A stretch of 64,000 nucleotides of DNA from Pseudomonas sp. BN102 (GTDB taxonomy: Bacteria; Pseudomonadota; Gammaproteobacteria; Pseudomonadales; Pseudomonadaceae), in assembly GCF_029871245.1 (NCBI RefSeq), contig NZ_SSON01000070.1:186001-250000 (forward strand), in the 5' to 3' direction. The notes under the pieces were generated by a model that made no database searches, was not told the DNA's origin, and saw only the letters and a list, made by a program, of their open reading frames with translations. Below are positions 13,666-55,122 of the stretch, in pieces (position 1 is the first letter of the stretch; each line of letters starts with the position of its first letter). The position numbers were made by a program, and so were the translations under genes.

Positions 13666-13672
13666 AGTCATG

Positions 13673-15842: not shown

Positions 15843-15876
15843 TTATGATATTTCCTGGGTGTGGGCTTTGGAGGGG

Positions 15877-18191: not shown

Positions 18192-18264
18192 GCGTGGCTT
18201 TTAGTTATTGGTTCGTGATTTGATTCTGAAATTTTCAGTCTAACATTTTGATTTTTTTTAATAA

Positions 18265-18318: not shown

Positions 18319-18332
18319 TGGTGAATTTCAGA

Positions 18333-19568: not shown

Positions 19569-19635
19569 CTTGCTTCCTTATTAAAGCCAAAGTTCAAAGT
19601 GAAAACGGTGTATCGCGGTGCCTTGCGGCGGTTGC

Positions 19636-20763: not shown

Positions 20764-20806
20764 TACTTTCTCCACGCGTCCTTGTGGACTGCTTTCTGGA
20801 AATTGC

Positions 20807-22520: not shown

Positions 22521-24038
22521 TTAGTAGATGTCCTTGGAGAGCAGGGTGAATGGCGTTTTGATCAGGATCTTGAGATCCAGCCAGATGGACCAGTTGTTGA
22601 TGTAGGCCAGGTCCAGTTCGACACGCCTTTCCATCTTGTCGATTGTTTCCGTCTCGCCCCGGCTGCCGCTGATCTGCGCAAGGCCGGTAATGCCGGGCTT
22701 GATGCGGTGACGGGCCATGTAGGCGTCGATCTTGCCGGTGTAGTAGTCGTTGTGCGCGACGGCGTGTGGGCGCGGGCCCACCAGGGACATGCGGCCTTGC
22801 AGCACATTGAACAGCTGCGGCAGTTCGTCGATGGAGGTGCGGCGGATGAAGCGGCCAACGCGGGTGATGCGTGGGTCTTCACGGGTGGCCTGCTTGACCT
22901 GGGCATCGGCATGCACGCGCATGGAGCGGAACTTCCAGACCTTGATGACCTTGCCATTCCAACCGTGGCGCTTCTGCTTGAACAGCACCGGGCCCGGAGA
23001 GGACAGCTTCACCGCCAGGGCAGTACCCAGCAGGAGCGGGCTGAGCAGCAGTATGGCCAGCAGGGCAACACAGCGGTCCAGCGCGGCCTTGGTGAGCGCG
23101 CCGGTGGGGTAGCTTGTGAGCGGGCTTTCGTTGAGGTTGATCGCGGCCAGGCCGTCGATATCTGAAACCGAGTGGTTGAGCAGCTTCAGGCTTTGCAGGT
23201 CGGGGATCCACACCACGTCGACGTTGGCATCGAGCAGATCGATGTAGAGCCCTTCGATCTGGTCTGCGGCGGAGAGGGGCAGGGCGATGTAGAGACGGCG
23301 CACCTTGTGGGTGGCGATCAGTTCGCGCAGATGGCTCAGGTTGCCGACGATGGGGTAGAGGCCATCATCCAGGTGAGGGTGATCGTCGGCGGTCACCAGG
23401 CCCACCAGGGGCTCGTTACGCTTGCGCACCAGCTTGTCGGCCAGTTCCTGGGCCAGGTCTCCGGTGCCGATCACCAGTGAGGTGCGGGCGGATTGAAGCT
23501 GTTGGTGGTAACGGCGGGAGAAGGCATGCAGGGGCAGGAACAGGCAGGCCTGAACGATGAATCCGACCCCCGCCCAGGTGATGACGATCTCGCGGGAGAA
23601 CAGCTCGCTGGTCTTGGTGAGGAAGGCGATCACCGTCAGGCCGGAAAGCAGGACCAGCCAGCCGGCCAGCAGCCGACCCAGGCCTGCCACGTAGCCATGA
23701 TGCTTGTGGTAGACGCCCATCAGCGAATAGGCCGGCACGGAACCCAGCAGGGTGTACAGGGCGAGGATGCGGTATTGGGTTTCGATATGCCCGGTCTTGC
23801 CCATGGCCAGGGCACAGAGCAGCAACGTCAGCATGCCGATTGCGGCTGCCCACTGGCCCCAGAACGTCAGGCCGCGTGCATCCGGTGTAGTGTTTTCCCG
23901 CTTGCTGATCAGATTGATACGGCTGGTGCGCGTACCGGCGGCATTGTGGCGGGCCTTGGTGGCCTGTTGGGGAGCGCCTGGCGCGGTGCGGTGTTGGGCC
24001 TGGGGCCGTTGAGAGGCTGCCTGAGTGTGTGTGGGCAC
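22521..24038 (-). CDS. wcaJ: WcaJ-type undecaprenyl-phosphate glycosyl-1-phosphate transferase (system 1)
   Basis: This inner-membrane enzyme starts repeat-unit synthesis by moving a sugar-1-phosphate, probably glucose, onto undecaprenyl phosphate. The 505-residue protein has a Gln/Ala-rich N-terminal tail (1-45), four hydrophobic segments (about 58-180), a CoA-binding-like Rossmann region (about 185-290), a fifth hydrophobic segment (about 315-335) and the catalytic domain with KFRSMR, RFIRRTSIDELPQL and SLVGPRP. It is the first gene after the ops leader. A full paralogue lies in system 2 (42194-43645) and a remnant of a third copy at 31278-31640. Confidence 0.92.
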   Translation of the reverse strand: MPTHTQAASQRPQAQHRTAPGAPQQATKARHNAAGTRTSRINLISKRENTTPDARGLTFWGQWAAAIGMLTLLLCALAMGKTGHIETQYRILALYTLLGSVPAYSLMGVYHKHHGYVAGLGRLLAGWLVLLSGLTVIAFLTKTSELFSREIVITWAGVGFIVQACLFLPLHAFSRRYHQQLQSARTSLVIGTGDLAQELADKLVRKRNEPLVGLVTADDHPHLDDGLYPIVGNLSHLRELIATHKVRRLYIALPLSAADQIEGLYIDLLDANVDVVWIPDLQSLKLLNHSVSDIDGLAAINLNESPLTSYPTGALTKAALDRCVALLAILLLSPLLLGTALAVKLSSPGPVLFKQKRHGWNGKVIKVWKFRSMRVHADAQVKQATREDPRITRVGRFIRRTSIDELPQLFNVLQGRMSLVGPRPHAVAHNDYYTGKIDAYMARHRIKPGITGLAQISGSRGETETIDKMERRVELDLAYINNWSIWLDLKILIKTPFTLLSKDIY

Positions 24039-24231
24039 GACTGATACCTGTCCTGGGGGCGACGCTACGATCGGGAAGCTAGCCTGCCTTCCTGGGGCTA
24101 GCGGTGTGGTTCCAATACGAAATTCCGCGGTGCTTCCTTGTCTGTTTCCGAACCTTGTCCGGGTTACCTGGGCTTGTGGCCCTGCCTTGTATTGCTCTGG
24201 GATTCAGATTTGGTCCGATCGTGCTTTTGGC

Positions 24232-24242
24232 ACGCTACCGCC
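24232..24242 (-). promoter_or_regulatory. ops element (RfaH recruitment site), system 1
   Basis: The minus strand reads GGCGGTAGCGT, the exact ops sequence known from E. coli rfb, rfa and capsule leaders, where it pauses RNA polymerase and recruits RfaH. It is about 194 bases upstream of wcaJ and downstream of an RfaH paralogue gene. The flank CTGGGGCGGTAGCGTG is identical over 16 bases to that of the second site at 34809-34819. Confidence 0.9.
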
Positions 24243-24702
24243 CCAGGGTTATCCGTTGATTCCCTGAGAACGGTCGCCACAGGCGATGGCTTGCCTCGGG
24301 CATGGCCCGAAGCGGCAGTGGTTGGAGTGGATGAAAGCGGGCGTACCGAGTCTGCGCTCGGCTAGCGCTTTGCAGGGGGAGAGTCATTCCCTGACGACGT
24401 GACTGCCTGTAGGCAGTTGCCTTACATCCCATAGGAATAGGCCTTGCCTGTTCCTGCGGGGGCATTCTACGGATTCGTCTGAGATTGTGAAGAGCATCAA
24501 CATACACCGCTCGTCGAAAAGTTGACGTTTCAGAAATGTGTCTATCTTGCGGATGACCGGTTAGTCAGAAATCTGCCTACGGCAAAAATGGCAAAATTCC
24601 TACGCGCTAATGGGACGTATTACCCAAGAGAAAGTTCCGACGGACGGGGTCGTTTTTATGGGGGGCTCGTTGAAAGAGCCCGAACCCTGGTCGGCGGAGC
24701 CG
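24243..24702. other. long leader between rfaH-1 and the ops site
   Basis: This stretch should hold the promoter of the wcaJ operon. A stem-loop, GGGCTC (24663-24668) and GAGCCC (24676-24681), lies just after the rfaH-1 stop with no U-run behind it. No gene and no clear promoter hexamers are seen. Local base composition is more AT-rich around 24500-24620. Confidence 0.5.
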
Positions 24703-25209
24703 TCAGAGCTTGTCGATGCAGTCCAGCGGGACGCTGAGGGTGTGCTGACGCTGCATGAGTTGCAGGAGAATAAGCACGCGCTCGGTTCCGTCCTTGGCCA
24801 GGAAGATGGCCTCCAACTCCTTCAGGTTGCCGCTCTTGATGCGGACGCGATCGCCTGCGCTCAGGTCGGGTTCGGGGAGTAGGGGGGAGGTGAGGCGTTG
24901 CTTCAGGTCTTCGACAAGCTCATCGGCTATGGCCGCCGGCTGGCCACCGAAGCACACCAGTTGGCTGACGCCGCGAGTGGAGCGAATCGGGAGCCAGTTG
25001 TCATTCACCTGGTCCAGTTGAATGAACAGGTAGCCGGGAAACAGTGATTCATCGTGCTGCTGCTTTCGACCAGCACGCAGGCGCGTTACGCAATGGGTGG
25101 GCCGGAAGCACGTGAAGGCTTGGCGATGCAGGTGCTCTTGCGCGCGCGCATCTTGTTTCGGCTTGCACTGGATCAGGTACCAGCGGGGGGCTGCAAGTTT
25201 GCCTTCCAT
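24703..25209 (-). CDS. rfaH: RfaH-type transcription antiterminator (paralogue 1)
   Basis: A 168-residue NusG-family protein. The N-terminal NGN domain (about 8-100) contains WYLIQCKPKQ, the aromatic/basic DNA-contact region and ESLFPGYLF. The C-terminal KOW domain (about 115-168) has GDRVRIKSG and AIFLAKDG, close to E. coli RfaH (GAFEGFQAIF). RfaH binds the ops site on the non-template strand, suppresses pausing and termination, and recruits ribosomes. It is encoded directly upstream of an ops leader. Start at 25209 is the internal ATG; a GTG at 25218 is possible. Confidence 0.9.
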   Translation of the reverse strand: MEGKLAAPRWYLIQCKPKQDARAQEHLHRQAFTCFRPTHCVTRLRAGRKQQHDESLFPGYLFIQLDQVNDNWLPIRSTRGVSQLVCFGGQPAAIADELVEDLKQRLTSPLLPEPDLSAGDRVRIKSGNLKELEAIFLAKDGTERVLILLQLMQRQHTLSVPLDCIDKL

Positions 25210-25251
25210 GCAATTCACATCCCTTCTCGGTCTGGAGCCTTGGCTACTTGT

Positions 25252-25277
25252 CCCCTCTCCCGTTTGCGAGAGAGGGG
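25252..25277. repeat. CCCCTCTC palindrome between wzc and rfaH-1
   Basis: Arms CCCCTCTC (25252-25259) and GAGAGGGG (25270-25277) form a hairpin in the 79-base gap between wzc and rfaH. It belongs to the same family as 7399-7419. It could reduce read-through from wzc into rfaH. Confidence 0.65.
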
Positions 25278-25288
25278 AGTGGGTGGGC

Positions 25289-27529
25289 TTATGCCTTGTC
25301 CGATTTGTACTCGTACTGGTAGTAGGCGTAGTTGCCGTAGTAGCCGTAGGCCGAGGCCTTGCGCTCCACGGCGTTGAAGATGGCGCCCTTGAGGTTGATG
25401 CCGTTCTGCTCGAAGCGGCGCTTGGTCAGCAGGATTTCCTTGGCGGCGTTCATGCCGAAGCGGGTGACGATCAGGCTGGTGCCCGCCTGGCGGCCCACCA
25501 GGGCGGCATCGGTTACTGCGAGGATTGGCGGGGTGTCGACTATCACCAGGTCGTAGCGGCCGCTCACCTGTTCCAGGAACCGGGTGAAGTTGGCGTGCAT
25601 CAGCAGTTCCGAGGGGTTCGGCGGAATCTGCCCACGGGTGATCATGTGCAGGTTTTCCACCTCGGTATGAGTGATGGCCGTATCCAGGTCGATGCGCGCG
25701 GCCAGCAGCTCGGAGAGGCCGTTTTCCGCCTCGTCGCGGAACATCCTGTGCAGATAGCCTTTGCGCATGTCGGCGTCCACCAGCAGTACGCGCTGACCGG
25801 TCTGGGCAACGATGGCGGCGAGGTTGGCGGAGACGAAGGACTTGCCCACGGCCGGGCTGGGGCCGGAAATCATCATGATGTTGTTCTTCGCCTCCAGGGT
25901 GGCGAAGTGCAGGCTGGTACGCAGGCTGCGCAGGGACTCCACCGCCAGGTCCGCCGGATTGGTCACCGCCAGCAGATGGGAGCCGGTGCTGGCGTGGGAC
26001 TTGCCCCTGAAGCTCTGCTCGTGGGCCGCCTGTTCCTTGCTGTGGGGGATGGCGGCGTACACCGGCAGGCCCATCTGTTCGATGACGTCCGGGTCTTCCA
26101 CGCCGCGGTTCAGTGCCTTGCGCACCAGCACATAGGCGACCGCGATCAGGCCGCCCAGCAAAGTGGCGATCATCACAATCAGCGGCTTTTTGGGTTTGAC
26201 GGGCTTCTCGACGTTGGCGTCGGCGGCGTCGATGATGCGCACGTTGCCCACGGTGCCGGCACGCAGGATATCCAGCTCCTGGGACTTGTTCAGCAACTGG
26301 GTGTAGATCTCTGTGCTCACCTGCACGTCACGGGTCAGGCGCAGCAGTTCCTGCTGGGTTTCGGGCAGGTTCTCCACCTTCTTCAACAGCTCGCGCCTGG
26401 TCTGCTCCAGTTGACCCATCTGGGTGATCAGGGCCTGGTAGCTGGGGTGCTGACGGGTGAAGCGGCGCTCCATTTCAGCACGCTTGAGCTTCTGCTCGGA
26501 AATCAGGGTTTCCAGCTGGACGATCTGGTCCAGTACCGCCTTGGTTTCGATGGTGATATCCACCGAGCGGGCGCTGGTCTGGTACGTGTTCAGCTTGGCT
26601 TCTGCCTCCTCAAGCTGCTTGCGCACTTCCGGCAGTTGCCCCTGGAGGAACTCCAGGCTCTGCGCCGCTTCGGCGGAGTTGCGCTGCACGTTCTGCAAAA
26701 CATAGAGGCGGCTCACTTCATCCAGCACGCGAGTAGCGTGCGCCGGGTCTTCGCTTTCCAGCGAGAGGGCAATGATGCCGGATTCCTTACCGCGCTCACC
26801 TGCCCCCAAGTCTTCCTGATACTGCAGGATGGTGGTCAGGCGGCGTTGCTTAACCACGCTGAATTCAGTGCCAGCATTGGCGCGCAGCTCAGCGACTTGC
26901 AGCTTGAAGCCGTCTTGCTCGATCTGGGCGCCGACATTGCCGGTCAGAACGGCCTCATCGTCTTCATTCAACAGAGTGAAGGCGCCATTGCCTTCCGCGC
27001 GGAGGGTCAGCTCCTTGCCCAGGTAACTATCGGGTACTTCCAGCTGGAAGATGTCCAGCTTTTCACCGCCCCAGGCGAAGCCACTGAGGCCAAAGAGTGG
27101 CCCCGCAAGCTCCTGACCGGGTTCGGGCTGGAAGCGCCGCGCGAGGAACCGGCCGAACAGCGGGAAGTGATGGGGCTCGACAATCACATCCAGCTTGAGG
27201 TTTTCCACCGCCTGGCCCAGCACGGCGCGGGATTTCAGCAGTTCGATTTCAGTGACCGCCGCCGAGGTGCCGCCGAACATCTCGGTCATTTCCGACATGC
27301 CGGTCATGGCTGCCAGGCCGCCCTTTTTCTCCTCCACCTGCACCAGGGCGTTGGCCTGGTACACGGGGGGAGTCAGCACGGCATAGGCCGCGCCCATTAC
27401 GGTAAAGAAGGCGGTGATGCCGACGATCAGCCACTTGTTGTCCAGCAGGGTGCCGGCCAGCGCGAGCAGGTCGATATCGTCATCGTCATCACGGGTGTCC
27501 TGCACGGGCAGGCTGTTTTGGCTGGTCAT
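25289..27529 (-). CDS. wzc: Wzc-type polysaccharide co-polymerase and tyrosine autokinase (system 1)
   Basis: This 746-residue inner-membrane BY-kinase controls chain length and export with Wza. An Asp-rich N-terminus precedes membrane segment 1 (about 33-53). The periplasmic Wzz domain with long coiled coils follows (about 54-430), then the GNVR-type region, membrane segment 2 (about 440-460) and the kinase. Kinase motifs are Walker A GPSPAVGKS, Walker A' LLVDADMRKG and Walker B VIVDTPP. The tail carries eight tyrosines (YGYYGNYAYYQYEY), the autophosphorylation cluster. It follows wzb by 22 bases. Confidence 0.95.
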   Translation of the reverse strand: MTSQNSLPVQDTRDDDDDIDLLALAGTLLDNKWLIVGITAFFTVMGAAYAVLTPPVYQANALVQVEEKKGGLAAMTGMSEMTEMFGGTSAAVTEIELLKSRAVLGQAVENLKLDVIVEPHHFPLFGRFLARRFQPEPGQELAGPLFGLSGFAWGGEKLDIFQLEVPDSYLGKELTLRAEGNGAFTLLNEDDEAVLTGNVGAQIEQDGFKLQVAELRANAGTEFSVVKQRRLTTILQYQEDLGAGERGKESGIIALSLESEDPAHATRVLDEVSRLYVLQNVQRNSAEAAQSLEFLQGQLPEVRKQLEEAEAKLNTYQTSARSVDITIETKAVLDQIVQLETLISEQKLKRAEMERRFTRQHPSYQALITQMGQLEQTRRELLKKVENLPETQQELLRLTRDVQVSTEIYTQLLNKSQELDILRAGTVGNVRIIDAADANVEKPVKPKKPLIVMIATLLGGLIAVAYVLVRKALNRGVEDPDVIEQMGLPVYAAIPHSKEQAAHEQSFRGKSHASTGSHLLAVTNPADLAVESLRSLRTSLHFATLEAKNNIMMISGPSPAVGKSFVSANLAAIVAQTGQRVLLVDADMRKGYLHRMFRDEAENGLSELLAARIDLDTAITHTEVENLHMITRGQIPPNPSELLMHANFTRFLEQVSGRYDLVIVDTPPILAVTDAALVGRQAGTSLIVTRFGMNAAKEILLTKRRFEQNGINLKGAIFNAVERKASAYGYYGNYAYYQYEYKSDKA

Positions 27530-27551
27530 CTGGAGCGCTTCTTCAAGGGGG

Positions 27552-27986
27552 TCAGAGTTTTTGCGACCAGCTTTCGACGCCTTGCGCCATCAGCTGATAG
27601 ACATGTTCGAAGGCAGGCTTTTGCTGGCGATAGGGGTCAGGGATTTCCTGATTGCCCTGCCATTTGCCGAGAAGGAAGGTCTTGCCCCGCGCTTCTGGCG
27701 CCAGTTGCACGATCCGCTGGATATGGCCCTGCTCCATGGTGAGGATCAGGTCGTACTGGCGCAGCATTTCACGGGTCAGTTGGCGGCCCTGGTGGTCGGG
27801 GTGGTCCCCGCCGTGCTCACGCAGCACTTCGAGTGCGGTGGCGTCCATGGGCTTGCCCTCCAGGGCATGGATGCCCGCGGAGGCGACGGTGATCCCGCGC
27901 GGGGCGAGTCTGGATACGAGCAGGGCTTCGGCGGTCGGGCTGCGGCAGATATTGCCGATGCAGACAACCAGGATGTTCTTGAACAT
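27552..27986 (-). CDS. wzb: Wzb-type low-molecular-weight protein tyrosine phosphatase
   Basis: The 144-residue phosphatase should dephosphorylate the Wzc tyrosine cluster, allowing cycling of polymer assembly. The active-site loop is C9-IGNIC-R15-S16 and the general-acid motif DPYR lies near 116. The start at 27986 was chosen because the family begins FKNILVVCIGNICRSP. An in-frame start at 28175 would add 63 residues with no similarity. It is first in the wzb-wzc-rfaH series. Confidence 0.93.
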   Translation of the reverse strand: MFKNILVVCIGNICRSPTAEALLVSRLAPRGITVASAGIHALEGKPMDATALEVLREHGGDHPDHQGRQLTREMLRQYDLILTMEQGHIQRIVQLAPEARGKTFLLGKWQGNQEIPDPYRQQKPAFEHVYQLMAQGVESWSQKL

Positions 27987-28529
27987 AAGGGCCAGCACGG
28001 GTTGCAGGGTCGTTTTTACAGCCGCGCGGGTGTGCTGCGAAGGAGGAAAGCGGATTCCGTTCCAACATCCCGATACGGCATCCCCAGAATTTCGCAACTG
28101 CTGGGGAGCGTGAAGGGGGGCAACTGTAGGGGGGGCGGGGATGAGGGTCAAGACTCCTTGGTCGCTTTCTGCCATAGAAACGAGCCTCGGTCCGATATGT
28201 TGGCCCGGGCAGGGTGGGCGAATATTCGACCCAACGTCAGGCGCAGCTTCATATGAACTTGGGAAACCACGTTTCAGAACGGGGTGATGAATAACTGACT
28301 CTGCCCGTTACTTAAGTTGTTTGGATAGAGCGCCGAAGTCGGCCAGGTAGGGTGCGCTGTGCACACCAGCGGTTGGGCGTGGCGTCGGATCTGATCTCGG
28401 GATTGGTGCGCATGGCGCACCCTACGAAGTTGACCCCCGGAGGTCCCGAGGGCAGACCTTTGGTCTGCTTCGCGAATGAATTCGCCCCCACAAGGTTCGC
28501 CCAGCTCCTTTTAGATGTAGGGCACTGGA
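27987..28529. other. intergenic region upstream of wzb
   Basis: Bases 27987-28240 should carry the wzb promoter; the segment GAATATTC near 28220 is a small palindrome. From 28245 to about 28440 the sequence is homologous to 33095-33290. A GTAGGGTGCGC element sits at 28347-28425 and a GAATTCGCCCCCACAA repeat arm at 28458-28494. No gene is supported. Confidence 0.55.
28347..28425. repeat. GTAGGGTGCGC dispersed repeat, copy 1
   Basis: A 79-base element with inverted ends GTAGGGTGCGC and GCGCACCCTAC around a GGTTGGGCGTGGCG core. Two further copies are at 33199-33278 and 51148-51226. Its size and palindromic ends suggest a REP or miniature element without coding capacity. Confidence 0.82.
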
Positions 28530-29189
28530 TCACTTGATTGTGGCGAGGCGTCGCTCATCTGTTGGCTGCAGTTTCGCCTGGAGCAGCATCCATTCCCGCT
28601 GGATGACCGAATAGGGAATGAACACGCTGATTCGCTGGGCTCCCTGCAAGCCCGGGTGGTGGCTGACGTCGTTGAGGTTGACTGAGTAGATGCCCATGTT
28701 GATGCCGACAATGCTGCCGTCTTCGGCCATCACCGGGCCACCCGACATGCCTTTGGCGATGGGGGCGTCATGAATGGCGTAGAGCTCGCCGCTGTCTTCA
28801 TTGGTATTGAGGAAGGGCGCCGGATAAACCTTGCCATGGCTGCTGCCGCCAACCAGATAAGGGCTGGAGCCTGCGGCAGTGATGCTTTCGCCCGGTTGCG
28901 CGGTGCGCCAGCTCGGTATTTTGCCGTTGGCCTTGTGCCTTATGAACACCAGGTCGCAGCCCGTACTGCAGCGGTACTTCTCGTAGGGGATCAGCGGCGT
29001 GTGGGCAGTGGTGACGGCGTATTCCTCGTTCCACTGCACGGCCGAAGCCATATAGAAGTAGGGAAGCGGAAAGCCCGAGAAAATCGAGAAGTACGTTTCT
29101 GTGCTGGGGCCTGAAATATCAGGTTTGACCAATCCGTTGCATCCTGCACACAAGGCTCCTGCCATGAAGATGGCGGCAATCTTGCGCAT
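28530..29189 (-). CDS. exported trypsin-like serine protease
   Basis: A 219-residue exported protein whose N-terminus (MRKIAAIFMAGALCAGC) is a signal sequence with a CAG-C lipobox-like end at Cys17. The chymotrypsin-fold triad can be traced as His63 (TTAHTP), Asp79 (GCDLVF) and Ser149 (KGMSGGPV), followed by GSIVGINMG, the usual closing strand. No PDZ domain is present, unlike DegP/DegS. It stands alone between the two polysaccharide systems. Its substrate is unknown; processing of exported polysaccharide proteins is one possibility. Confidence 0.82.
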   Translation of the reverse strand: MRKIAAIFMAGALCAGCNGLVKPDISGPSTETYFSIFSGFPLPYFYMASAVQWNEEYAVTTAHTPLIPYEKYRCSTGCDLVFIRHKANGKIPSWRTAQPGESITAAGSSPYLVGGSSHGKVYPAPFLNTNEDSGELYAIHDAPIAKGMSGGPVMAEDGSIVGINMGIYSVNLNDVSHHPGLQGAQRISVFIPYSVIQREWMLLQAKLQPTDERRLATIK

Positions 29190-29945
29190 GGTGGCTCACC
29201 GACGTTTTGCTTTAAGAGGCGCCTCTCCTGGCTGGGTTATGTCCGCCGGTGCCCCTGTACTGCTTCATCAGGTAAAGCCCGTTGCCATCACTTATGGGTG
29301 ACGAACGGTAGTCACATTGGATCGCGTCGATATAGGTCAAATAGCGTTTGACCATATGACCGCTGGTCTGGATTGCCCGGACGTTGGAGTGGGGTGCACG
29401 GCTGGCAATTTGCTGCTACGGCTCCAAAAGCTGCGTCGCGCCAAGGGGTTGCGTTGCTGCTAATTCGTTTGCAAATCAATCCAGAAGGATCAATGAGCCG
29501 ATTTGTAGTTCCCGCTAGTCGTTATTTTGGCGGGGCTTGTCGGCCCGCCCGCCATTTGCCCCGGCTTGGCTTTTAGACGGAAGGACATGTGATAGCCGCG
29601 TGTTGGATGGCTGTAGCCGAACCCATTCGGCATCAGGTGCCTCGCCGCATGGCCACCCGCGAGTACGCCGGACGCTCACCTTCACTTTTCGGGTAGTGCG
29701 ACTCGATCGGTGCATTCAAACTCTGCCGTCGCACCGCCTGAGCTTGCGGTCCGCGTACGTATCGGCAAAGGTCATCTGCTTCACCAGATGGATTGGCTAA
29801 CGGGTTCGACCTATTGCACCAGAAACCGGAAGCCCTTCTTAGACCTTCCTGTGGTTCGACAGTCTTCCGTCTGTGGAGTCATCCTTGACCGCAGTAGTCT
29901 TTTTATTCACATTTTTCGCTGCTTTATATTTAGCGATTAAGGTTA
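29190..29945. other. 756-base stretch without a recognised gene
   Basis: Upstream of the protease gene lies a dyad (29335-29353). The rest, about 29360-29945, includes a CCCGCC/GGCGGG-rich segment near 29530-29560 and an AT-rich end before ugd. Short open frames here look random and no function or family is visible. Confidence 0.5.
29335..29353. promoter_or_regulatory. dyad, possible operator
   Basis: GGTCAAA and TTTGACC flank a five-base centre, about 146 bases upstream of the protease start. A second CCATATGACC follows at once. The regulator is unknown. Confidence 0.35.
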
Positions 29946-31268
29946 TTACCGGCCAATAGACAGGTACGTGAAGCCTTTTTGGGTCATCCGCTTCCGCTCA
30001 AACAAATTGCGGCCATCAAAGATAACCGGCTGTTTAAGTTGCGTCTTGATGAAATCGAAGTCTGGCGCCTTGAATGCTTGCCACTCTGTAACGATTATCA
30101 GGGCATCGGCGCCTTTCAACGCAGCCTCTTTGGTACCGCACAGGCTCAATGCTTCATCATTACCATATAGGCTCTGGGCTTCTTCCATAGCTTCCGGGTC
30201 GTATGCCTGGACTTTTGCACCTGCCTTCCAGAGTGCTTCCATCAGCACTCGACTCGGCGCTTCACGCATATCATCGGTATTGGGTTTGAAACTAAGCCCC
30301 CACAGGGCAAAATTTTTGCCGCGCAGATCGCTATTGAAGTGCTGGAAGATCTTGCTGAACAGCACGGTTTTTTGTTCGTTGTTACGGTCTTCGACCGCCT
30401 TAAGCACCTTGGCGTCAAAGCCGATGCTGTCCGCAGTGCTAATCAACGCCCGGGTGTCTTTAGGGAAGCAGGAGCCGCCGTAGCCGGCACCGGCATAGAT
30501 GAAGTGGTAGCCAATGCGCGGGTCAGAGCCTATTCCTTGGCGAACCATTTCAATATCGGCACCCAGCTGTTCCGCCAGGTTGGCCATTTCGTTCATAAAG
30601 CTGATTTTGGTGGCCAGCATGCAGTTGGCTGCATACTTGGTAAGCTCTGCGCTGCGCACATCCATGACGATGATTCTTTCACGGTTGCGATTGAACGGAG
30701 CGTAAAGCTCCCGCATGAACTCTTCAGTCTGTTGGCTACCGGTACCGATGATGATGCGGTCCGGGCGCATGCAGTCGGCAACCGCGGAACCTTCCTTGAG
30801 GAATTCCGGGTTGGAGGCGACATCGAAGGCCAAGTCCTCCCGGCCACGCTCGGCGAGGATTTTGGTCACACAGGCACTGATCTTGTCAGCTGTGCCTACG
30901 GGCACAGTGGACTTGTCGATGATGATCTGGTGGCTTTCCATGTTGCGAGCAATGGTCTCTGCCACGGCAAGCACGTATTTCACGTCTGCCGAGCCGTCTT
31001 CACCAGGCGGGGTGCCGACTGCAATGAATTGAATTTCCCCGTGTTTCACCCCGGCAGCAGCATCTGTGGTGAAGTTGAGGCGCCCAGCTGCATGGTTTTC
31101 CTTGACCAGGTTTTCCAGGCCGGGTTCATAGATTTGGATATCGCCCTGCTTGAGACGCTCAACCTTATTGGCATCCACATCGATGCATACAACGTCGTGG
31201 CCTACTTCTGCGAGAACTGCACCTTGCACCAGGCCGACGTAGCCGATGCCAAAAACGGTCACTTTCAT
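29946..31268 (-). CDS. ugd: UDP-glucose 6-dehydrogenase
   Basis: The 440-residue enzyme oxidises UDP-glucose to UDP-glucuronate. The NAD loop is GIGYVG at 7-12, the substrate lid includes [12 protein letters not shown] near 85-96, and the catalytic Cys267 sits in [11 protein letters not shown], the Ugd version of the motif. It stands alone on the minus strand, right after a decayed wcaJ/beta-CASP remnant, so it may be the survivor of an older polysaccharide operon. Either system could use UDP-glucuronate. GDP-mannose dehydrogenase is less likely, given the motif and length. Confidence 0.93.
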
Positions 31269-31277
31269 GGGGTTCCC

Positions 31278-31640
31278 TCAGCGCTTGAATCGATTGAATG
31301 GCGTGAGCACCAGCGTCTTGGGCTCTGGTGAGATCAATACTAGGCGATGGGTAGGTAGTGCGGATTTTTCTTCTCGCTGGCGGTCACCATAGGTGCTTTG
31401 CAGTACCTGGATGTCGTTTATCCAGCGCAATTCAAGCTCGTGTAGCTGGGGGGTTGGCGCGGAACGGCGTTGGACCTGGGGTTGGTGCAAGCGGTTGCCT
31501 GGGCGTGTCGGTACGACTGGAACTTGCCCTGGGGCGGCCCTGCGATGGGGAGGCTGGCTCGCCTTCGTGTGGCTAGCGGCGGTGGACTTCCAGCGAAATC
31601 TCGTCAGTCCGGATAAAAACAAATAGTCAAGAAAGTTCAT
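31278..31640 (-). pseudogene. decayed fusion of wcaJ 5' end and beta-CASP gene fragment
   Basis: The frame encodes a wcaJ-like N-terminal tail (VPTRPGNRLHQPQVQ beside VPTHTQAASQRPQAQ of the system 1 enzyme) joined directly to a beta-CASP fragment (WINDIQVLQSTYGDR beside [15 protein letters not shown]). At the DNA level about 31446-31605 aligns with 23975-24115, including sequence upstream of the wcaJ start. Order and strand match the intact wcaJ and beta-CASP genes at 20807-24038, so about 2 kb was lost between the two fragments. It is unlikely to make a working protein. Confidence 0.8.
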
Positions 31641-32337
31641 ACGACTGCAAGTGCAGCTTTATGTTTTCCACGTCATTGTTCATGAGTACATCAATAACCG
31701 ATAGCCCAGCGACGAACTCTCTTGCGCTGATTTGTTTATAGCTTTTTAATTTCGGATTCACAAATGACAGGTTTACGCCTCTGTCGGCGAAATAATCCTT
31801 TTCATACAGTTCAGTTCCTCCTATGGAGTTAACGTAATTATCTGAATCAAGAAGCTTTGTTATTTCAATGAGTCTGTCTGGCCTGGCCATGCCCCTTGTA
31901 TTCGAAAAGCAGGCCGAAGAGCGAACGAATTTCTTGTCCACTCCAATCACCTCATAAAACCTCTCGATCGATTTTATTGCCACATCAGAAATTGAACTCT
32001 GTTCGGTGCTTAGGACGTCAAGAACATACCTGTAGCCAACTTCGTAGAAGGGGCATTTTCCATAGGCTAGCTGTATCTGCTTCAGGAATTTCCGTTTAAA
32101 GTCGTCAAAAGAATGCGTCTTGATGTCGCAGATTAGTTTATTCTGGCTGCCATTCGACAGTGGGATGGTGAAGTTGTATGGGGTCCCGTTTATCAGGATT
32201 CTATTGCGATTTATCCATCCGCGGTTTATGAAGTTCACGTCATCATAAAAAACAAATACGTCACTCTCCTCGATCAGGCAGAAATACCCAATATAGGGAA
32301 AGACATACGGCTGCATTATTGATATGGTGTTGGGCAT
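31627..32337 (-). CDS. WbqC family protein (copy 1)
   Basis: A 236-residue WbqC-family protein. Family motifs are SIMQPYVFPYIGYF at the start, INRGWINRNRIL, IPL, a PFY segment and SIGGTELY near the C-terminus. WbqC-like proteins occur in O-antigen and capsule clusters and are thought to act in nucleotide-sugar amine modification, but the reaction is not settled. The ATG at 32337 places the conserved strand at the N-terminus; starts at 32349 and 32397 are alternatives. It is AT-rich and stands alone. A paralogue lies at 47117-47854. Confidence 0.83.
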   Translation of the reverse strand: MPNTISIMQPYVFPYIGYFCLIEESDVFVFYDDVNFINRGWINRNRILINGTPYNFTIPLSNGSQNKLICDIKTHSFDDFKRKFLKQIQLAYGKCPFYEVGYRYVLDVLSTEQSSISDVAIKSIERFYEVIGVDKKFVRSSACFSNTRGMARPDRLIEITKLLDSDNYVNSIGGTELYEKDYFADRGVNLSFVNPKLKSYKQISAREFVAGLSVIDVLMNNDVENIKLHLQSYELS

Positions 32338-33410
32338 ATTGCGCACCATCAAACGAGGATTCAGCTTTGCGGAGATTCTAGCAGTGCCCGCATCCACTGT
32401 TTTCTATGTTGCAGTCGAAGGTTATTCGAAATGTTTCATGCTGCCTGCGTAAAGTGTTGGTATTTGGCTTCCAGACCCGTAGGGGCGTACGGCGCTCCGC
32501 TTTAGCCCACAGTTGAACTTGCTGGTGAGCTAAAGCCCTACCTACCTGGTATTGCGCCCCAGCGTGGATTTCTTGGAAGCAGCAAACGCAGGCATAACTG
32601 AATATCTCGACGTTTCGATACTTTACCCAGGCACTCTAGCCAGCCTGATAGGTGATGCGAGATAGGGTGTTATCTGTCTTCTCTCCGGGCTTCTTCACTC
32701 CACACTTGGCATAGGTGGAACTGCCTGCGACAGTCCCTGGCGAGCCTCTCTGAACTTCGTGCTGCGCACCTAAAACCCCTTTACAGTCGTCACAAGGTGC
32801 TTCTCCAGTGCGAGCGGACAGGCGTTAAGAATTCCTGATCGCCGGTTGCCGTCGAATCGTTACCGGACTGATGTAGCCCGGCATCGAATGACGTCGACGG
32901 TGGCGGCAAATTGAGACTGGTCGGCTCGATCTGCTTTCTCCTGGCCGCGTGGTATCGACGATGGTGCCCTGGAGCAAGGACGAGTCACGATCTGTGCGAG
33001 TCGCCGGTAAGAAAGCTCTGTTCAGCCGCCTGATGGATGGCACCGAGCCATGATGTGCCCTATGTTCTTATGGTCACGAGGCGCAATGCATCACTTCATT
33101 TGAGCTCGGGAAACCACGGCCTTAAGACGTCGTCATGAGTAACTGGCTCTGCCCTTTACGGCTCGAGTTGTTTGGAGTGAGCGACTGGAGCCAGCCAGGT
33201 AGGGTGCGCCGTGCGCACCGACGGTTGGGCGTGGCGCAGCGGCTGATCCGGGGCAAGTGGTGCGCATGGCGCACCTACGGTGGCCCAAGCGCTGGAGTTA
33301 TGCCAGGGCTGCGACGGTAGGCGTCGCCCCTTCCAGAGGGCCAAAGCAAGTCGACGTTCTACGAACGTGGATGGTTACTGGCCGCGTCATAAGCAAGGGA
33401 GTTTCCACGG
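32338..33410. other. 1.07-kb stretch without an intact gene
   Basis: A minus-strand frame at about 32860-33043 contains LLQGTIVDTT, which recalls the GTIVDAT motif of IS5-family transposases, but it is too short and broken to name. Bases 33095-33290 repeat 28245-28440. The remainder shows only short random frames. The end of the stretch holds the promoter region of rfaH-2. Confidence 0.45.
33199..33278. repeat. GTAGGGTGCGC dispersed repeat, copy 2
   Basis: Same element as 28347-28425, with ends GTAGGGTGCGC and GCGCACCTAC. Here the homology with the first locus also extends about 100 bases to the left (GGGAAACCACG…AACTGGCTCTGCCC), so the two loci share a larger block. Confidence 0.82.
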
Positions 33411-33917
33411 ATGAGTTCCAGTCAGGAAAGCGCAGGTAGAGCCTGGTACGTGGTTCAGTGCAAGGTGCGCCAGGAAGAGCGCGCCGAGGAAAATCTGCTG
33501 CGTCAGGGCTATGCCTGCTATCACCCCAAACTCAGGCGTGAGCGCCTGGCCAAGGGGCGGCGGGAGATCGCGGAAGAGTCACTTTTCCCCGGATACCTGT
33601 TCGTCCATCTCAGCCAGGAGGATAACTGGGGGCCCTTGCGCTCTACGCGAGGTGTCAGCCGTATCGTGAGCTTTGGCAATCAGCCGGCGATTCTCAGTGA
33701 CAGCCTGATCGAACAACTACAGCAGCGCGAACATGTGCCTTGCGCAGTGGAGATGCTCTCGGTTGGTGAAAAGGTTCGTATCAACGATGGGCCATTTACC
33801 GACCTTGAGGCCATTTTCATGGCAATGGATGGGGAGGAGCGGGTGGTTCTGCTGCTCAAGTTTTTGCAGCGCGAGCAGAAGCTTCTCATGCCTTTGGCCG
33901 GCATCAGAAAGCTCTGA
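33411..33917 (+). CDS. rfaH: RfaH-type transcription antiterminator (paralogue 2)
   Basis: A 168-residue NusG-family protein, the same length as paralogue 1 but clearly diverged. NGN domain motifs are WYVVQCKVRQEERAEENL and EESLFPGYLFVHL; the KOW domain has GEKVRINDGPFTDLEAIF and ends MPLAGIRKL, close to E. coli RfaH. It precedes, on the same strand, the ops site at 34809-34819 that opens system 2, so each polysaccharide system has its own nearby RfaH. Start at ATG 33411, with AAGGGAG upstream at 33397-33403. Confidence 0.92.
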   Translation: MSSSQESAGRAWYVVQCKVRQEERAEENLLRQGYACYHPKLRRERLAKGRREIAEESLFPGYLFVHLSQEDNWGPLRSTRGVSRIVSFGNQPAILSDSLIEQLQQREHVPCAVEMLSVGEKVRINDGPFTDLEAIFMAMDGEERVVLLLKFLQREQKLLMPLAGIRKL

Positions 33918-34808
33918 AGAGGGCGTCGTTTTCCCTGGCATCTACCCACAGGGCAGGCCTGCGGCCTGCCAAGCGATTGAAATAGCCCTTACAAGCTTGG
34001 CCCGTGCTTACCGGGAAACGCTGAGCCGCCAAGTACCATGGCATCCGTAGGGGGATCACGCTTCACGGGTTCACCATCGATGCCACGCCGGACCGCGAAG
34101 ATGGATATGAAAAGCGCTGTCCGCCGATCGTCATCGGGGTGAATCGCCCTGGGTTTTCCAGGTGCTGGTCAGGCTTTGGGAAGACTTCTGGATGTATTCG
34201 AATCCATCGCTGCGAGCTTCTTCGCGAACCCCTCGTGTTGTTCACCGGATGCGTCCGCGCTTGCGCAACTGAAGAACGCTGTTCGGCCACCGTATGGTCG
34301 TGGCAGATACCCCGCCAACTCATAGTGCCGATCGGGCTCTTGGCCAGGAGAAGGCTTGCCCAACCCGAACGATAGAGAGGCTGCTCACGGAGTCGGACTG
34401 CTTGAGCTGGGCGATATCTTGACGTCGGGTTTCTGCAGAGGTGCGCGCCGCAGCCTCCAATGTGACGCCGAACTCAGAGTCTCGGCCCGCTGGTCACAGG
34501 CTTGCCGTCGCAGCGCCAAGTCCTTGCTGTGAAGCTTGATCCAGGCATTCATGCGATACACCGACATGCCCACGCGCGCAGCGACCGCTGCGATGAGCAG
34601 GCAGTGGATCTGTCGGCCTAAGAGCCGAGCAAAATCCGACTAGCGGCCAAGAGGGCCATACGGGCGTCAGTCTGCCCAATCGCCCCCCCAACTATCCTTC
34701 CACTCGTCACGGTGCGCCGAAATTTGTTCGGTGCGCGGGGGCCTTGGGTTTTGCTTCTAAAAAATCGGATCTAGCACTACCGCTGTCAGATGAAGGTCGG
34801 AAATCTGG
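33918..34808. other. intergenic region between rfaH-2 and ops site 2
   Basis: A perfect eight-base hairpin (GGCAGGCC / GGCCTGCC, 33952-33970) followed by AAGCGATTGAAATAGCCC lies just behind rfaH-2 and belongs to the repeat family seen at 7540-7930. A degenerate transposase-like segment lies at 34380-34600. The promoter of the system 2 operon should be near 34650-34800, but no clear hexamers are seen. Confidence 0.5.
34380..34600 (-). pseudogene. degenerate IS3-type OrfA remnant
   Basis: A minus-strand frame reads VAARVGMSVYRMNAWIKLHSKDL, given here as VAARVGMSVYRM and NAWIKLHSKDL. It resembles the helix-turn-helix of IS3-family OrfA (VAxRLGVSxxSLYxWIK). The rest is broken by frameshifts. No terminal repeats were found, so this is a tentative reading. 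Confidence 0.4.
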
Positions 34809-34819
34809 GGCGGTAGCGT
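34809..34819 (+). promoter_or_regulatory. ops element (RfaH recruitment site), system 2
   Basis: GGCGGTAGCGT on the plus strand, identical to the ops consensus, lies 228 bases upstream of the first gene of system 2. It shares 16 identical bases (CTGGGGCGGTAGCGTG) with the system 1 site. Confidence 0.92.
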
Positions 34820-35046
34820 GTCTGGACGCTCAGGTTGATTTAGGTGGTGCGGGGCTATTGGGGTTGTGTCCGAGATCGAACAAGAACTTTGTTGTTGATG
34901 GCCGGGCCACTGAAGCGGCCGATGGCTGAGGGCGGTTTGAAATCGTCTTCGAGGAAAGAAGCGTTGTCGCAATTCCCGATAACTGTCCACTGCTCGCAGG
35001 AGAAGGGAGACAGGATTCCATGCACCACCCAACGAGGACGCTCCAT

Positions 35047-35856
35047 ATGCGTAACAACCTCTGCGCTCTTACCGTGGCTGTAGCGCTGGCCTCTGGCCAA
35101 GCCTTGGCTGACCAATCCACCCTGGCTGCATTGCAGTCTGCAGGCGTTGCTTTGACCAAAGCCCAGGCTCAGGCCGTGAAGGCCGCAGAAGGTGATGCCC
35201 TGGCCAAAGCCGTCGCCAGTATCGTTTCGGCCCATTCTACGGCCGCTGCACCGTCGCATACGGCAAACATCGTTGCCGCGGCCGTGGCCGCCGCTCCAGC
35301 GCAGGCTGCAAACATCATTGCCGAGGCCGTGGCCGCCGCTCCCGCTCAAGCTGTAAGCATCGTTGCCGCAGGCGTGACCGTCGCCCCGGCTCAGGCTGCA
35401 AAGATCGTTGCCGCAGGCGTGAGGGCCGCTCCGTCCAAGTCCGCAGCCATCGTTGCCGCTGGCGTAACCGCCGCTCCGTCCAAGTCCGCAGCCATCGTTG
35501 CCGCTGGCGTAACCGCCGCTCCGTCCAAGTCCGCTGACATCGTTGCCGCTGGCGTAACCGCCGCTCCGTCCAAGTCCGCAGCCATCATTTCCGCCGGCGT
35601 GGCCGCCGCTCCGGCTCAGGCCCCTGGCATCGTTGCCGCATCGGTAGCCGCCGCTCCGGACCAAGCTATTGCAATCACCGGTGCTGCGGCGAGTGCTGCC
35701 CCGGCGCATGCCGCTGCGATCGTCGCCGCAGCGAAGATGGCCGCCGCCGTCAACACGGCCGCGGCAGGTCCCACCCCCGGTAACCCGGGCAACACCGCTG
35801 CCAGATCCAGAAACCCGGGTAACGGCGGTGGTGGCGGCTCTGCCAGCCCAAACTAA
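35047..35856 (+). CDS. secreted Ala-rich protein of 15-residue repeats
   Basis: I do not recognise this 269-residue protein. It has a signal peptide (1-21, ending ALA), a short non-repeated region (22-66), eleven 15-residue repeats at 67-231 of the form AAPxxxAxIVAAGVx, and a Pro/Gly/Asn-rich tail ending GGGGGSASPN. Four repeats (35425-35604) carry SKS and are nearly identical in DNA. It is the first gene after ops site 2, the position that the GfcA-like protein has in the gfc set. Such repeats suggest a helical or coiled surface or periplasmic protein. Start at ATG 35047, with GAGG nine bases upstream; 35020 is an alternative. Confidence 0.75.
   Translation: MRNNLCALTVAVALASGQALADQSTLAALQSAGVALTKAQAQAVKAAEGDALAKAVASIVSAHSTAAAPSHTANIVAAAVAAAPAQAANIIAEAVAAAPAQAVSIVAAGVTVAPAQAAKIVAAGVRAAPSKSAAIVAAGVTAAPSKSAAIVAAGVTAAPSKSADIVAAGVTAAPSKSAAIISAGVAAAPAQAPGIVAASVAAAPDQAIAITGAAASAAPAHAAAIVAAAKMAAAVNTAAAGPTPGNPGNTAARSRNPGNGGGGGSASPN
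35245..35739 (+). repeat. eleven tandem 45-base repeats inside a coding region
   Basis: Eleven in-frame 45-base units begin at 35245. Units 5-8 are the most alike, differing at only a few positions, which would allow repeat number to change by slippage or recombination without breaking the frame. Confidence 0.9.
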
Positions 35857-35962
35857 TAGAGTGAGCTCCCGCTGAAAAAGCTCTTATGCTGGTACTTTAT
35901 GCGTCGGCGTTGTTTTGCAATATCCGCCGAAAAAATCACAGGAAAGGATCACTGGGGTTTCT

Positions 35963-37144
35963 ATGTGCATGAAGTTGAAAGCAAGCTCATTGGCTGCCGT
36001 CGTTTCAGTTGCGCTATCTACCAATGCCTGGGCGATAGAGCCGCAATTCATCAAACTGACCGATAGTCTGACCTTCACGCCAACGCTGAAAGTCGGCGAG
36101 CGATACGACGACAATTTCCGGGCTGTTGAAGAGGGTGAGAAGTCCTCTTGGATAACCCAAATCGCCCCGTCCTTCGAACTGGGTGCCGAAGGCCGCAAGA
36201 GTGCTTACAAGCTCACATACTCGGCTAACACTGACATTTTTCATTCGAGCCACAAGGACGACAACACGGACCACCACCTGAACGCTGATGCCGTGCTCAA
36301 GTTCGATGCGCGCAACCAACTGAAGTTGGACGCCGGTTACCAGCAGGTTGAAGACACCGCTGTCGATGACCGGAATCTCACGAATGGCCAGAGCCTGGAG
36401 AACAACAAGTACACCATCGCCAATATTGGTGGGGTGTACACCTACGGTGCCGAGAGCGCTCGTGCGCAGATCGATCTCGGTGCCGACTACAGGGAGTTGC
36501 GCTATCAGAATAGCGACCATCTCAACGCCGAAAACGAATACGACACCACCGCTCTGCGCAGTACCTTCTATTACCGCGTGGCGCCCAAGACCCGAGCCCT
36601 GCTGGAGGCCCGCCATAGCGACTACGACTACGTCACGAACGATCGCCTCAACAGTAATGACATCGCTCTGCTCGGCGGCCTGACCTGGGAAGCTACTGCC
36701 AAGACCAGCGGCTCCGTCAAGATTGGTGCAGAAAAGAAGCGTTTCGATGATTCCAGCGTCGACGAGCAAAGCGGCTCGATGTGGGAGGTGGGTGTCAAAT
36801 GGAAGCCGCGCACCTACTCCACGTTCAACCTCGAGACCAGTCGCGAACTCGACGAAGGTGACGATGGTTCTTCCTCTATTCAGTCGCAGAGCGTTTCCCT
36901 GAGTTGGGAGCACGAGTGGCTCGAGCGCCTGAGCTCAGATGTCAGCTACTCGTACGCCGACGAGGAGTACCAGGACATAGATCGTGACGACAAGATCAAG
37001 TCTTTCAGCGTGGCACTGACGTACGAGATGCGCCGCTGGTTGGATGTGGGTGTCGGTTACATATACGCCGAAGACGACTCCACCGCGATTGGCGAAAGCT
37101 ACGAACGCAATATCTACTCGGTCAGCGTCATCGTCAGCCTCTGA
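35963..37144 (+). CDS. outer-membrane beta-barrel protein (BBP2/VpsM-like)
   Basis: A 393-residue exported protein with a signal peptide (1-28, ending AWA) followed by alternating amphipathic strands throughout, such as YKLTYSAN, ARAQIDLGADYREL and SVSLSWEHEW, and ending in a C-terminal aromatic-poor but hydrophobic VSL. It fits the putative beta-barrel porin 2 family, whose members VpsM and EpsL occur in exopolysaccharide clusters and are predicted outer-membrane export barrels. The start at 35963 follows a GGGG at suitable spacing. It replaces YjbH in this system. Confidence 0.82.
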   Translation: MCMKLKASSLAAVVSVALSTNAWAIEPQFIKLTDSLTFTPTLKVGERYDDNFRAVEEGEKSSWITQIAPSFELGAEGRKSAYKLTYSANTDIFHSSHKDDNTDHHLNADAVLKFDARNQLKLDAGYQQVEDTAVDDRNLTNGQSLENNKYTIANIGGVYTYGAESARAQIDLGADYRELRYQNSDHLNAENEYDTTALRSTFYYRVAPKTRALLEARHSDYDYVTNDRLNSNDIALLGGLTWEATAKTSGSVKIGAEKKRFDDSSVDEQSGSMWEVGVKWKPRTYSTFNLETSRELDEGDDGSSSIQSQSVSLSWEHEWLERLSSDVSYSYADEEYQDIDRDDKIKSFSVALTYEMRRWLDVGVGYIYAEDDSTAIGESYERNIYSVSVIVSL

Positions 37145-37220
37145 CTCTGCGTCCGTAGAGAAAATAGGGGGTACCCGCCCCCTTTCGTTACTTCGCTATT
37201 TTCAGGAGCAAACGAGCCAA

Positions 37221-37760
37221 ATGATCATTCGATTTTTTTCCAGACTGATCCTCGGCATGCTGCTGATCAATGGCGGCATCGTACAGGCGGACGGTAACTC
37301 CCAGTACAAGTTGGCTTCTGGAGATGTCATCCGTATCAATGTTTTCGGCGAAAAGGACCTCAGCTTCGAAGAACTCCGCCTTACCGATGCTGGTACTTTC
37401 TCCTACCCCTTCATTGGTGAGGTGCAGGCCAAAGGCAAAACCGCTGCCGAGATCGAGCAGATGATCATTGCCAAGCTCAAGGGCGATTACCTGGTCGACC
37501 CTCGCGTATCGGTCAGCGTCCTGAAATACCGTGAATTCTTCATCAGTGGCGAAGTGAAAACCCCTGGCGGCTACGCCTTCCAGCCGGGGCTGACCTTGCG
37601 TCGTGCCGTCGCTCTTGCCGGCGGCCTGACCGAGCGCGCCTCGGACAAGCGCATCACCATCATCCGTGACCACGATGCCAGTCGTACCCCCGAGCGCGCC
37701 ACGCTCGACACGCTGGTAATGCCTGGCGACACCATCACGATCGACCAAGGCTTTTTCTAG
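37221..37760 (+). CDS. small Wza-like polysaccharide export protein (VpsN-like)
   Basis: A 179-residue periplasmic protein with a signal peptide (1-23, ending VQA), a poly-export domain (about 27-105; DVIRINVFGEKDLS) and one SLBB domain (about 108-170). There is no lipobox Cys and no C-terminal outer-membrane helix, so unlike Wza it cannot itself span the outer membrane. It presumably links the tyrosine kinase to the beta-barrel encoded just before it, as suggested for VpsN/VpsM pairs. ATG 37221 was chosen for the signal peptide. Confidence 0.88.
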   Translation: MIIRFFSRLILGMLLINGGIVQADGNSQYKLASGDVIRINVFGEKDLSFEELRLTDAGTFSYPFIGEVQAKGKTAAEIEQMIIAKLKGDYLVDPRVSVSVLKYREFFISGEVKTPGGYAFQPGLTLRRAVALAGGLTERASDKRITIIRDHDASRTPERATLDTLVMPGDTITIDQGFF

Positions 37761-37860
37761 CGCGAGCCATCGTCTCGGCAAACCAGGGAATGGGGTCGCA
37801 CCACGTGGTTTACCCCATTGGTGCCTGAGCGCCCTTAACCTTTTCAGGGGTGTCCCACTC

Positions 37861-55120: not shown

Positions 55121-55122
55121 AA

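Follow-up and report, generated by a model that had tools for sequence, protein, structure and literature searches.

The window analysed here is a 64,000-nt stretch of Pseudomonas sp. BN102, on contig C70 of its genome (coded G000), which totals 6.48 Mb in 81 contigs. It holds two genes for RfaH-family antiterminators, each followed on its own strand by an ops element and a long polysaccharide operon. In E. coli, RfaH is the product of a single gene and acts in trans at the ops/JUMPstart leaders of O-antigen, capsule and other long operons.

24703..25209, minus strand: rfaH1, RfaH-family antiterminator, 168 aa, downstream of wzb-wzc (TIGR01955, 185.8 bits)
24231..24244, minus strand: ops1, extended 14-mer GGGGCGGTAGCGTG, exact match
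33411..33917, plus strand: rfaH2, RfaH-family antiterminator, 168 aa (TIGR01955, 173.7 bits)
34807..34820, plus strand: ops2, extended 14-mer GGGGCGGTAGCGTG, exact match

The original prediction had placed two 168-residue RfaH-like reading frames here, each upstream of one ops site on the same strand. Translation confirmed both frames and the arrangement, and both proteins exceed the TIGR01955 equivalog cut-off of 144.5 over their full length, while neither reaches the cut-off of 100 of the UpxY model NF033644 (77.4 and 84.2 bits for RfaH1 and RfaH2). The two are 51% identical. They account for two of the three RfaH matches in the whole genome; a fourth NGN protein is presumably NusG. From the rfaH stop codon to the ops 11-mer the gap is 460 nt at rfaH1 and 891 nt at rfaH2.

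The 11-mer GGCGGTAGCGT has only two exact matches in the window, at 24232-24242 (minus strand) and 34809-34819 (plus strand), as had been reported. Shuffles gave an expectation of 0.03, and none of 100 yielded two. The identity between the sites was overstated, however: it amounts to 16 bases in total, CTGGGGCGGTAGCGTG, ops included, and not to 16 flanking bases. Genome-wide, the 11-mer has 9 matches against 4 for a reversed control, and only three of the 9 extend to GGCGGTAGCGTG. The extended 14-mer is found solely at ops1 and ops2. Both sites also carry GGCGGTAGNNTG, our criterion for an ops element, in the leader and on the operon strand. A chance origin of the sites was rejected on the strength of the shuffles together with the rfaH linkage across the family described below. 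Looser searches for further targets in this genome returned background, with GGCGGTAGNNTG matching 19 times (22 for the reversed control) and the 14-mer with at most one mismatch 5 times, the two exact sites counted (5 for the control).

E. coli RfaH contacts the ops loop through K10, H20, R23, Q24, T68, N70, A71, T72, R73, G74 and V75, position 20 making a base-specific contact (PMC5995543, in excerpt). At these 11 positions plus Q13 and R16, RfaH1 and RfaH2 differ only at position 20 (His and Asn, respectively). Both proteins have K10, Q13, R16, R23, Q24, T72, R73, G74 and V75; the side chains K10, H20, R23 and R73 are all present in RfaH1, and three of the four in RfaH2 (N20). Among 110 distinct RfaH proteins encoded at the loci fetched (those with names were the 80 best of 534 found), the 14-mer lies downstream of 22 of 59 with His20 and 32 of 49 with Asn20. 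Asn is the commonest residue 20 among the ops-linked relatives (32/56). Operon specificity through residue 20 is thus rejected, and since His20 and Asn20 proteins go with the same ops, specificity for an operon at the DNA level is unlikely.

Linkage and lineage across the Pseudomonadaceae

We examined 18 genomes of the genus, including G001 (which matches Pseudomonas boanensis DB1, a Metapseudomonas according to NCBI) and G015 (which matches Pseudomonas sp. BN417), and 248 genomes of the Pseudomonadaceae. Within the genus, the 14-mer occurs nine times in five genomes; eight of the nine follow an RfaH match on their strand by at most 1 kb, and none occurs in the 10 genomes that lack an RfaH match. 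The family as a whole yields 115 14-mers from 86 genomes; an rfaH match is also present in 84 of these and missing from G195 and G235. At least 61 of the 115 sit 74-1029 bp past the end of an rfaH match on the same strand, a lower bound that rests on the rfaH matches listed. One lies upstream of a listed rfaH; the opposite strand has none within 2 kb. Of the 61 spacings, more than half fall at 74-170 bp, and both spacings in the window are long. Similarly, the 14-mer follows 56 of the 110 distinct rfaH genes within 1.5 kb, a position in which 200 shuffled 14-mers never occurred. This count too is a lower bound, because several rfaH genes without the exact 14-mer carry a match of 12 or 13 of its 14 bases. 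Such near-matches stand 54-247 bp past the stop codon in the rfaH genes of L134, L113, L186, L208 and L212.

The layout had been called unusual. As far as an rfaH-linked ops goes it is common in the Pseudomonadaceae; two linked pairs in one genome occur in at least 4 of the 248 (G000, G001, G015 and G037). Sixteen genomes have a single rfaH match and two to four 14-mers. From the 54 14-mers without a listed rfaH, 16 were fetched, and one of these (L129) turned out to be linked; 8 of the remaining 15 precede genes resembling the polysaccharide genes of the window, the comparison being with window proteins only. Family score, contact residues, conservation of the sites and family-wide linkage together make a predicted action of RfaH at both ops sites well supported.

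RfaH1 has orthologues in G001, G007, G011 and G015 (77-98% identity), with ops 438-531 bp past the stop codon in all four, and RfaH2 in G001, G011 and G015 (67-90%). In a tree of the 110 proteins, RfaH1 and RfaH2 fall on opposite sides of a branch with 97/92 support, and the third RfaH of the genome in a third set. RfaH1 belongs to 15 rows that are all ops-linked, and RfaH2 to a four-row set from the genus, three of them linked. A local rfaH duplication is rejected on this split; as judged from the tree, RfaH1 and RfaH2 represent two distinct, old lineages, each remaining with its operon. The cassettes of G001 are both whole but face each other, about 50 kb apart, rather than pointing apart, and each rfaH keeps its own ops and its own operon despite the rearrangement. 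The suggestion that each paralogue serves its own operon therefore holds genetically; biochemically, as far as can be judged from sequence, it does not, as the contacts differ at position 20 only and His20 and Asn20 proteins both have the same 14-mer downstream.

Two other relatives depart from the pattern. In the rfaH2 cassette of G011 (L087), the last G of ops is changed to T and contact residue R23 of RfaH2 to L, and the rfaH1 cassette has both ops and R23 intact; in this one case ops and protein seem to be decaying jointly. In G015 (L082:3303-5496 and L083), an extra ops lies 263 bp past rfaH2 on a short contig, ahead of a Wzy-like gene (31.2 bits, cut-off 31.7), and the right operon, on a different contig, has an ops as well. 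A repeat is common to both contig ends, so tandem ops sites are possible there.

The RNA behind ops

24464..24491, minus strand: predicted sigma-70 promoter TTCACA-N16-TAGAAT, between rfaH1 and ops1 (10/12 consensus matches)
24244..24272, minus strand: putative JUMPstart-like RNA, left; stem 1 24272-24269/24257-24254, stem 2 24266-24262/24248-24244 (covariation)
34777..34807, plus strand: putative JUMPstart-like RNA, right; stem 2 34787-34791/34803-34807, stem 1 34780-34782/34798-34800

The left promoter is the sole match within 23900-25300 (0.2 in shuffles), and its block is kept in five genomes, with the second hexamer altered in two. Given this predicted promoter between them, rfaH1 and ops1 need not share a transcript. 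U11 of ops would lie about 225 nt into the left transcript, counted from an inferred start site.

Upstream of ops, CGTTCTCAGGAAACCAACGGTAAATCCTGGGGCGGTAGCGTG or variants of it are common to the linked leaders of the RfaH1-like and RfaH2-like groups. The fetched loci hold 149 instances of the 14-mer, of which 106 are distinct and 73 were kept as non-redundant leaders. A 5-bp stem (G-U allowed), whose 3' arm consists of the four bases preceding the 14-mer plus its first G, is present in 63 of the 73, compared with a mean of 13.3 and a maximum of 22 when the upstream bases are shuffled. It is found in 34 of 39 rfaH-linked leaders and 29 of 34 others, versus 106 of the 538 remaining GGGGCGG sites at these loci.

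We aligned 74 leaders, these 73 plus the left site of the window. A pseudoknot of stem 1 (CGTT/AACG) and stem 2 (CAGGA/TCCTG) pairs in 88.1% of cells, compared with at most 48.7% when slid. Doubly changed cells, a count that relatedness inflates, number 62 against 12.3 in shuffles (stem 1 alone, 26 against 4.0; stem 2 alone, 36 against 7.6), and the number of pairs changed on both sides is matched by 43 of 500 shuffles for stem 1 and 77 of 500 for stem 2. A simple nested hairpin was rejected as the whole answer: RNAalifold finds four pairs of stem 2 plus two within ops, but stem 1 covaries separately. In the right leader of the window, stem 2 reads CAGAT/ATCTG instead of CAGGA/TCCTG, and stem 1 was assigned by eye where the alignment is gapped. 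A few leaders, RfaH3-like ones such as L112, L129 and L135, have a short plain hairpin and no pseudoknot.

JUMPstart is reported to contain a conserved stem-loop (Weinberg et al., 2010; PMC2864571, in excerpt), and stem 2 occupies the place of the stem in the Rfam JUMPstart model, RF01707. In the left leader, the stem whose 3' arm abuts GGGCGGUAGCGUG (CAGGG/CCCUG) aligns to the RF01707 stem, with a sub-threshold score of 18.3 bits at 24231-24266 (gathering score 35). For comparison, the relative L151 scores 20.2 bits, with most of the model stem skipped, and the true E. coli JUMPstart 61.1. At the gathering score, Rfam has no match in the window and JUMPstart none in eight relatives; a looser Rfam scan of 24000-35100 gave only three chance-looking matches, and a class-wide JUMPstart search of 369 genomes gave 20 matches in 19 genomes, all under the cut-off. 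An RNA model built from the leaders themselves, whose rows include those of the window and five more from the genus, has 10 significant matches (E ≤4e-5) in the 18 genus genomes, all at these leaders and two of them in this genome; the next match has E 0.0035. The RNA behind ops is, on this comparative evidence, a divergent JUMPstart that covaries and is best drawn as a putative H-type pseudoknot. It differs from the E. coli JUMPstart in its left-leader score and in its second covarying stem; the bases of the classical E. coli element, a single sequence, would allow this fold too (CAG..CUG around CUGG..CCAG).

The last base of stem 2 stands 12 nt from U11, the geometry of a pause hairpin being 11-12 nt. 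The ops pause, however, is distinguished from a hairpin-stabilised pause in excerpts of PMC11001881, which speaks against a simple pause-hairpin role for the leader stem. Tentatively, and with somewhat less than even confidence, we propose for the Pseudomonadaceae a composite signal in the form of a bistable leader RNA, with ops as its final part. An H-type pseudoknot that ends 12 nt behind the RNA 3' end when polymerase is at U11 could maintain the pause or block backtracking, and could keep the RfaH loading window open. After polymerase departs, the 5' arm of stem 1 would re-pair with the ops RNA as an anti-ops hairpin, resetting the signal. The two structures are mutually exclusive, as they use the same 5' arm; in the right leader the anti-ops arm, 34777-34783, is complementary to 34810-34816. 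Anti-ops pairing holds in 88.9% of cells compared with at most 60.3% when slid, a figure that covariation cannot test because ops is invariant. The folding energy of the upstream arm alone is unremarkable (z 0.46 and 0.23); with ops included, z is -2.0 and -2.5.

Shared or private action of the two RfaHs

We consider it probable that the window carries two self-contained polysaccharide cassettes whose RfaHs share one address and form one redundant, cross-acting pool. In each cassette, an rfaH gene would be followed by a leader that carries a JUMPstart-like RNA and a canonical ops, and then by a long operon of the Wzx/Wzy type. The genes, the sites, their linkage and conservation, and the covariation of the RNA can be read directly from the DNA; from these we infer binding, pausing, antitermination, cross-action and inheritance as a unit. 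RNA polymerase would pause at ops while transcribing the leader, and either RfaH could load at either site, since both would read the same address. Linkage would then mean that the antiterminator is inherited with its operon as a local supply, with no private address. A shared pool is favoured because the contact residues are near-identical, Asn20 and His20 proteins share the 14-mer, and some genomes with a single rfaH match contain several 14-mers.

Several observations weigh against this account. At E. coli positions T68, N70 and A71, both RfaH1 and RfaH2 have Pro, Arg and Ser; nearly all ops-linked relatives deviate from E. coli there too. The other 7 of the 15 unlinked 14-mers have no polysaccharide-like genes in the fetched stretch, and the multi-ops counts may include chance sites, as the reversed pattern occurs about 15 times in the 248 genomes. 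A search for a sigma-70-like promoter of the right leader found none. RfaH is the textbook case of a fold-switching, trans-acting antiterminator. AlphaFold2, run on these two proteins with alignments of 54 and 51 rows (mean predicted local distance difference test scores of 85.0 and 83.6 for RfaH1 and RfaH2), models both C-terminal domains with a NusG-like beta KOW fold rather than the alpha-helical form of autoinhibited RfaH. Against the PDB, the top match of the RfaH1 model is a NusG model and its best RfaH is recruited RfaH (8phk), matched over the full length; with free RfaH (2oug), 93 columns align. In the excerpted text of a 2026 preprint, proteins with beta-KOW models are described as monomorphic, independent of ops and acting near their own gene (PMC13015549); if the KOW domains here behave likewise, the case for ops dependence and for action in trans would be weakened.

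Such models, together with the conserved linkage and with G011, where the rfaH2 cassette is altered in ops and residue 23 and the rfaH1 cassette in neither, would suit an RfaH that is private to its own operon by action in cis, the nascent or fresh protein loading nearby with weak or no autoinhibition. We regard this as unlikely. The autoinhibitory interface residues E48, F130, R138 and L142 are kept in both proteins, and I93 also in RfaH2, along with most ops contacts; six genomes with a single rfaH (G032, G064, G074, G088, G124 and G152) have another ops before polysaccharide genes; and the predicted promoter parts rfaH1 from ops1, making a shared transcript unnecessary. Redundancy, which identical ops sites lead one to expect, raises the further prospect that one or both genes are idle hitch-hikers and that the third RfaH, or one of the two, does all the work. 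This seems improbable, as both frames are open and conserved among the genus orthologues.

Pairs that are biochemically orthogonal, with each RfaH recognising additional bases in its own leader, would account for the sequence differences beyond the common 16-mer and for His or Asn at position 20. They are more improbable still: the same 14-mer goes with Asn20 and His20 proteins, and most of the upstream consensus is common to RfaH1-like and RfaH2-like leaders, though the right leader of the window departs from it. The least credible alternative is the one drawn originally from a shared address and two paralogues, namely competition giving a switch between two surface polysaccharides. Each protein would be an activator, and exchanging one activator for another turns nothing off. 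No UpxZ-like inhibitor is named among the window reading frames given to Pfam, a search that held no UpxZ-specific model, and the UpxY scores are below the cut-off. The proposed switch is thus unsupported.

The cassettes resemble the E. coli system in the RfaH family, the identical ops, a leader ahead of the first operon gene and a stem directly behind ops. Unlike in E. coli, each operon has an adjoining rfaH. In Bacteroides, UpxY lies within its operon and the product of the adjacent upxZ interferes with other operons (PMC7593976, in excerpt). The likeness lies in several operon-linked NusG paralogues for several polysaccharides; the proteins here are RfaHs, however, and no UpxZ was named among the window reading frames given to Pfam. 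The same excerpts (Wang et al., 2020) place Shewanella cluster CL7 RfaHs in exopolysaccharide operons and report rfaH duplications in the Pseudomonadaceae. Those RfaHs are likewise associated with operons but, in the text seen, are not tied to an adjoining canonical ops or to paired cassettes. RfaH duplication in the Pseudomonadaceae and operon-resident RfaHs are thus already published (PMC7593976 and PMC7819879, both in excerpt). The covarying RNA element behind ops is new here. Our literature search, which did not extend to supplements or most subscription papers, returned no account of Pseudomonadaceae rfaH-then-ops linkage, paired cassettes or a pseudoknot behind ops. Among its results for JUMPstart with a pseudoknot, only Weinberg et al. 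(2010) appears to concern this element, and JUMPstart is absent from the main text, as excerpted, of two ops-complex papers (PMC11001881 and PMC5995543).

A family in which canonical ops adjoins rfaH, with two or three pairs in some genomes, offers a natural test of the proposed path from a cis-acting NusG copy to a trans regulator, and of whether separation persists between paralogues that share an address. The covarying RNA suggests that recruitment at ops has an RNA half beyond the ops literature covered here, testable with existing pausing assays.

Third RfaH and polysaccharide operons

L014:6300-6803 (contig C6), plus strand: rfaH3, the third RfaH match of the genome
G000:C6:5968-5981, minus strand: ops variant TGGCGGTAGC(A/C)(T/A)TG, in the leader of a contractile-sheath gene

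No 14-mer accompanies rfaH3 in the stretch examined. In all six genus genomes that carry rfaH3, the gene is divergently linked to a contractile-sheath gene and E48 of the protein is replaced by Leu or Gln. The ops variant is conserved, and retained in G001 although the flanks differ; its pattern occurs genome-wide at background level. In G002, the cluster neighbouring rfaH3 encodes sheath, tube, Pvc16, baseplate J and core domains of an extracellular contractile injection system (eCIS). In Serratia entomophila, control of Afp lies with AnfA1, an RfaH homologue encoded beside the Afp cluster, and involves an RfaH operator (PMC6748792, in excerpt). On that excerpted description, RfaH3 resembles AnfA1 in its linkage to a cluster of eCIS type that has an ops-like element.

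22521..24038, minus strand: wbaP-type initiating sugar transferase, first gene past ops1 (PF02397, 4.2e-69)
20807..22348, minus strand: beta-CASP metallo-hydrolase (RNase-like), second gene of the left operon (PF10996, PF07521)
8428..20775, minus strand: remainder of the left operon, ending at yjbH (Pfam; genes named below)
25289-27529, minus strand: wzc, upstream of rfaH1 (Pfam)
27552-28175, minus strand: wzb, upstream of rfaH1 (Pfam)
35020..61934, plus strand: right operon (Pfam and membrane-span count)

The left operon runs from wbaP to yjbH, 24038 down to 8428, and appears group-4-capsule-like. The front of its remainder encodes a UDP-GlcNAc 2-epimerase, a UDP-sugar dehydrogenase, two multi-spanning proteins, a glycosyltransferase and WecG; the end encodes a 173-aa unknown, Wza, GfcB, GfcC and YjbH. 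As rfaH1 comes after wzb-wzc, some of the left export machinery sits upstream of ops1. The right operon, apparently Vps-like, starts with an unknown protein of 278 aa, a beta-barrel porin, Wza, Wzc, CpsB/CapC, a VpsP-like protein (93.9 bits, under its cut-off of 125) and WbaP, followed by RmlA, DegT, a WbqC-like protein, glycosyltransferases, two multi-spanning proteins, Gmd, an epimerase, a Nudix protein and ManC. Calling the operons complete is reasonable for both as long Wzx/Wzy-type operons with limits set by gene order alone; the two multi-spanning proteins of each operon are candidates for Wzx and Wzy, the flippase and polymerase, on a crude membrane-span count plus sub-threshold matches.

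Upstream of wzb, at 28530-29189 (minus strand), lies a gene whose 219-aa product weakly matches a trypsin-like peptidase (26.0 bits against a cut-off of 27.6); the gene is kept alongside the left cassette in G001, G011 and G015. A beta-CASP hydrolase gene stands near rfaH/ops in other genera as well (L088, L094-L098, L107 and L131-L133), either immediately before rfaH or immediately after ops, and an RNA-processing role of the enzyme at these leaders is possible.

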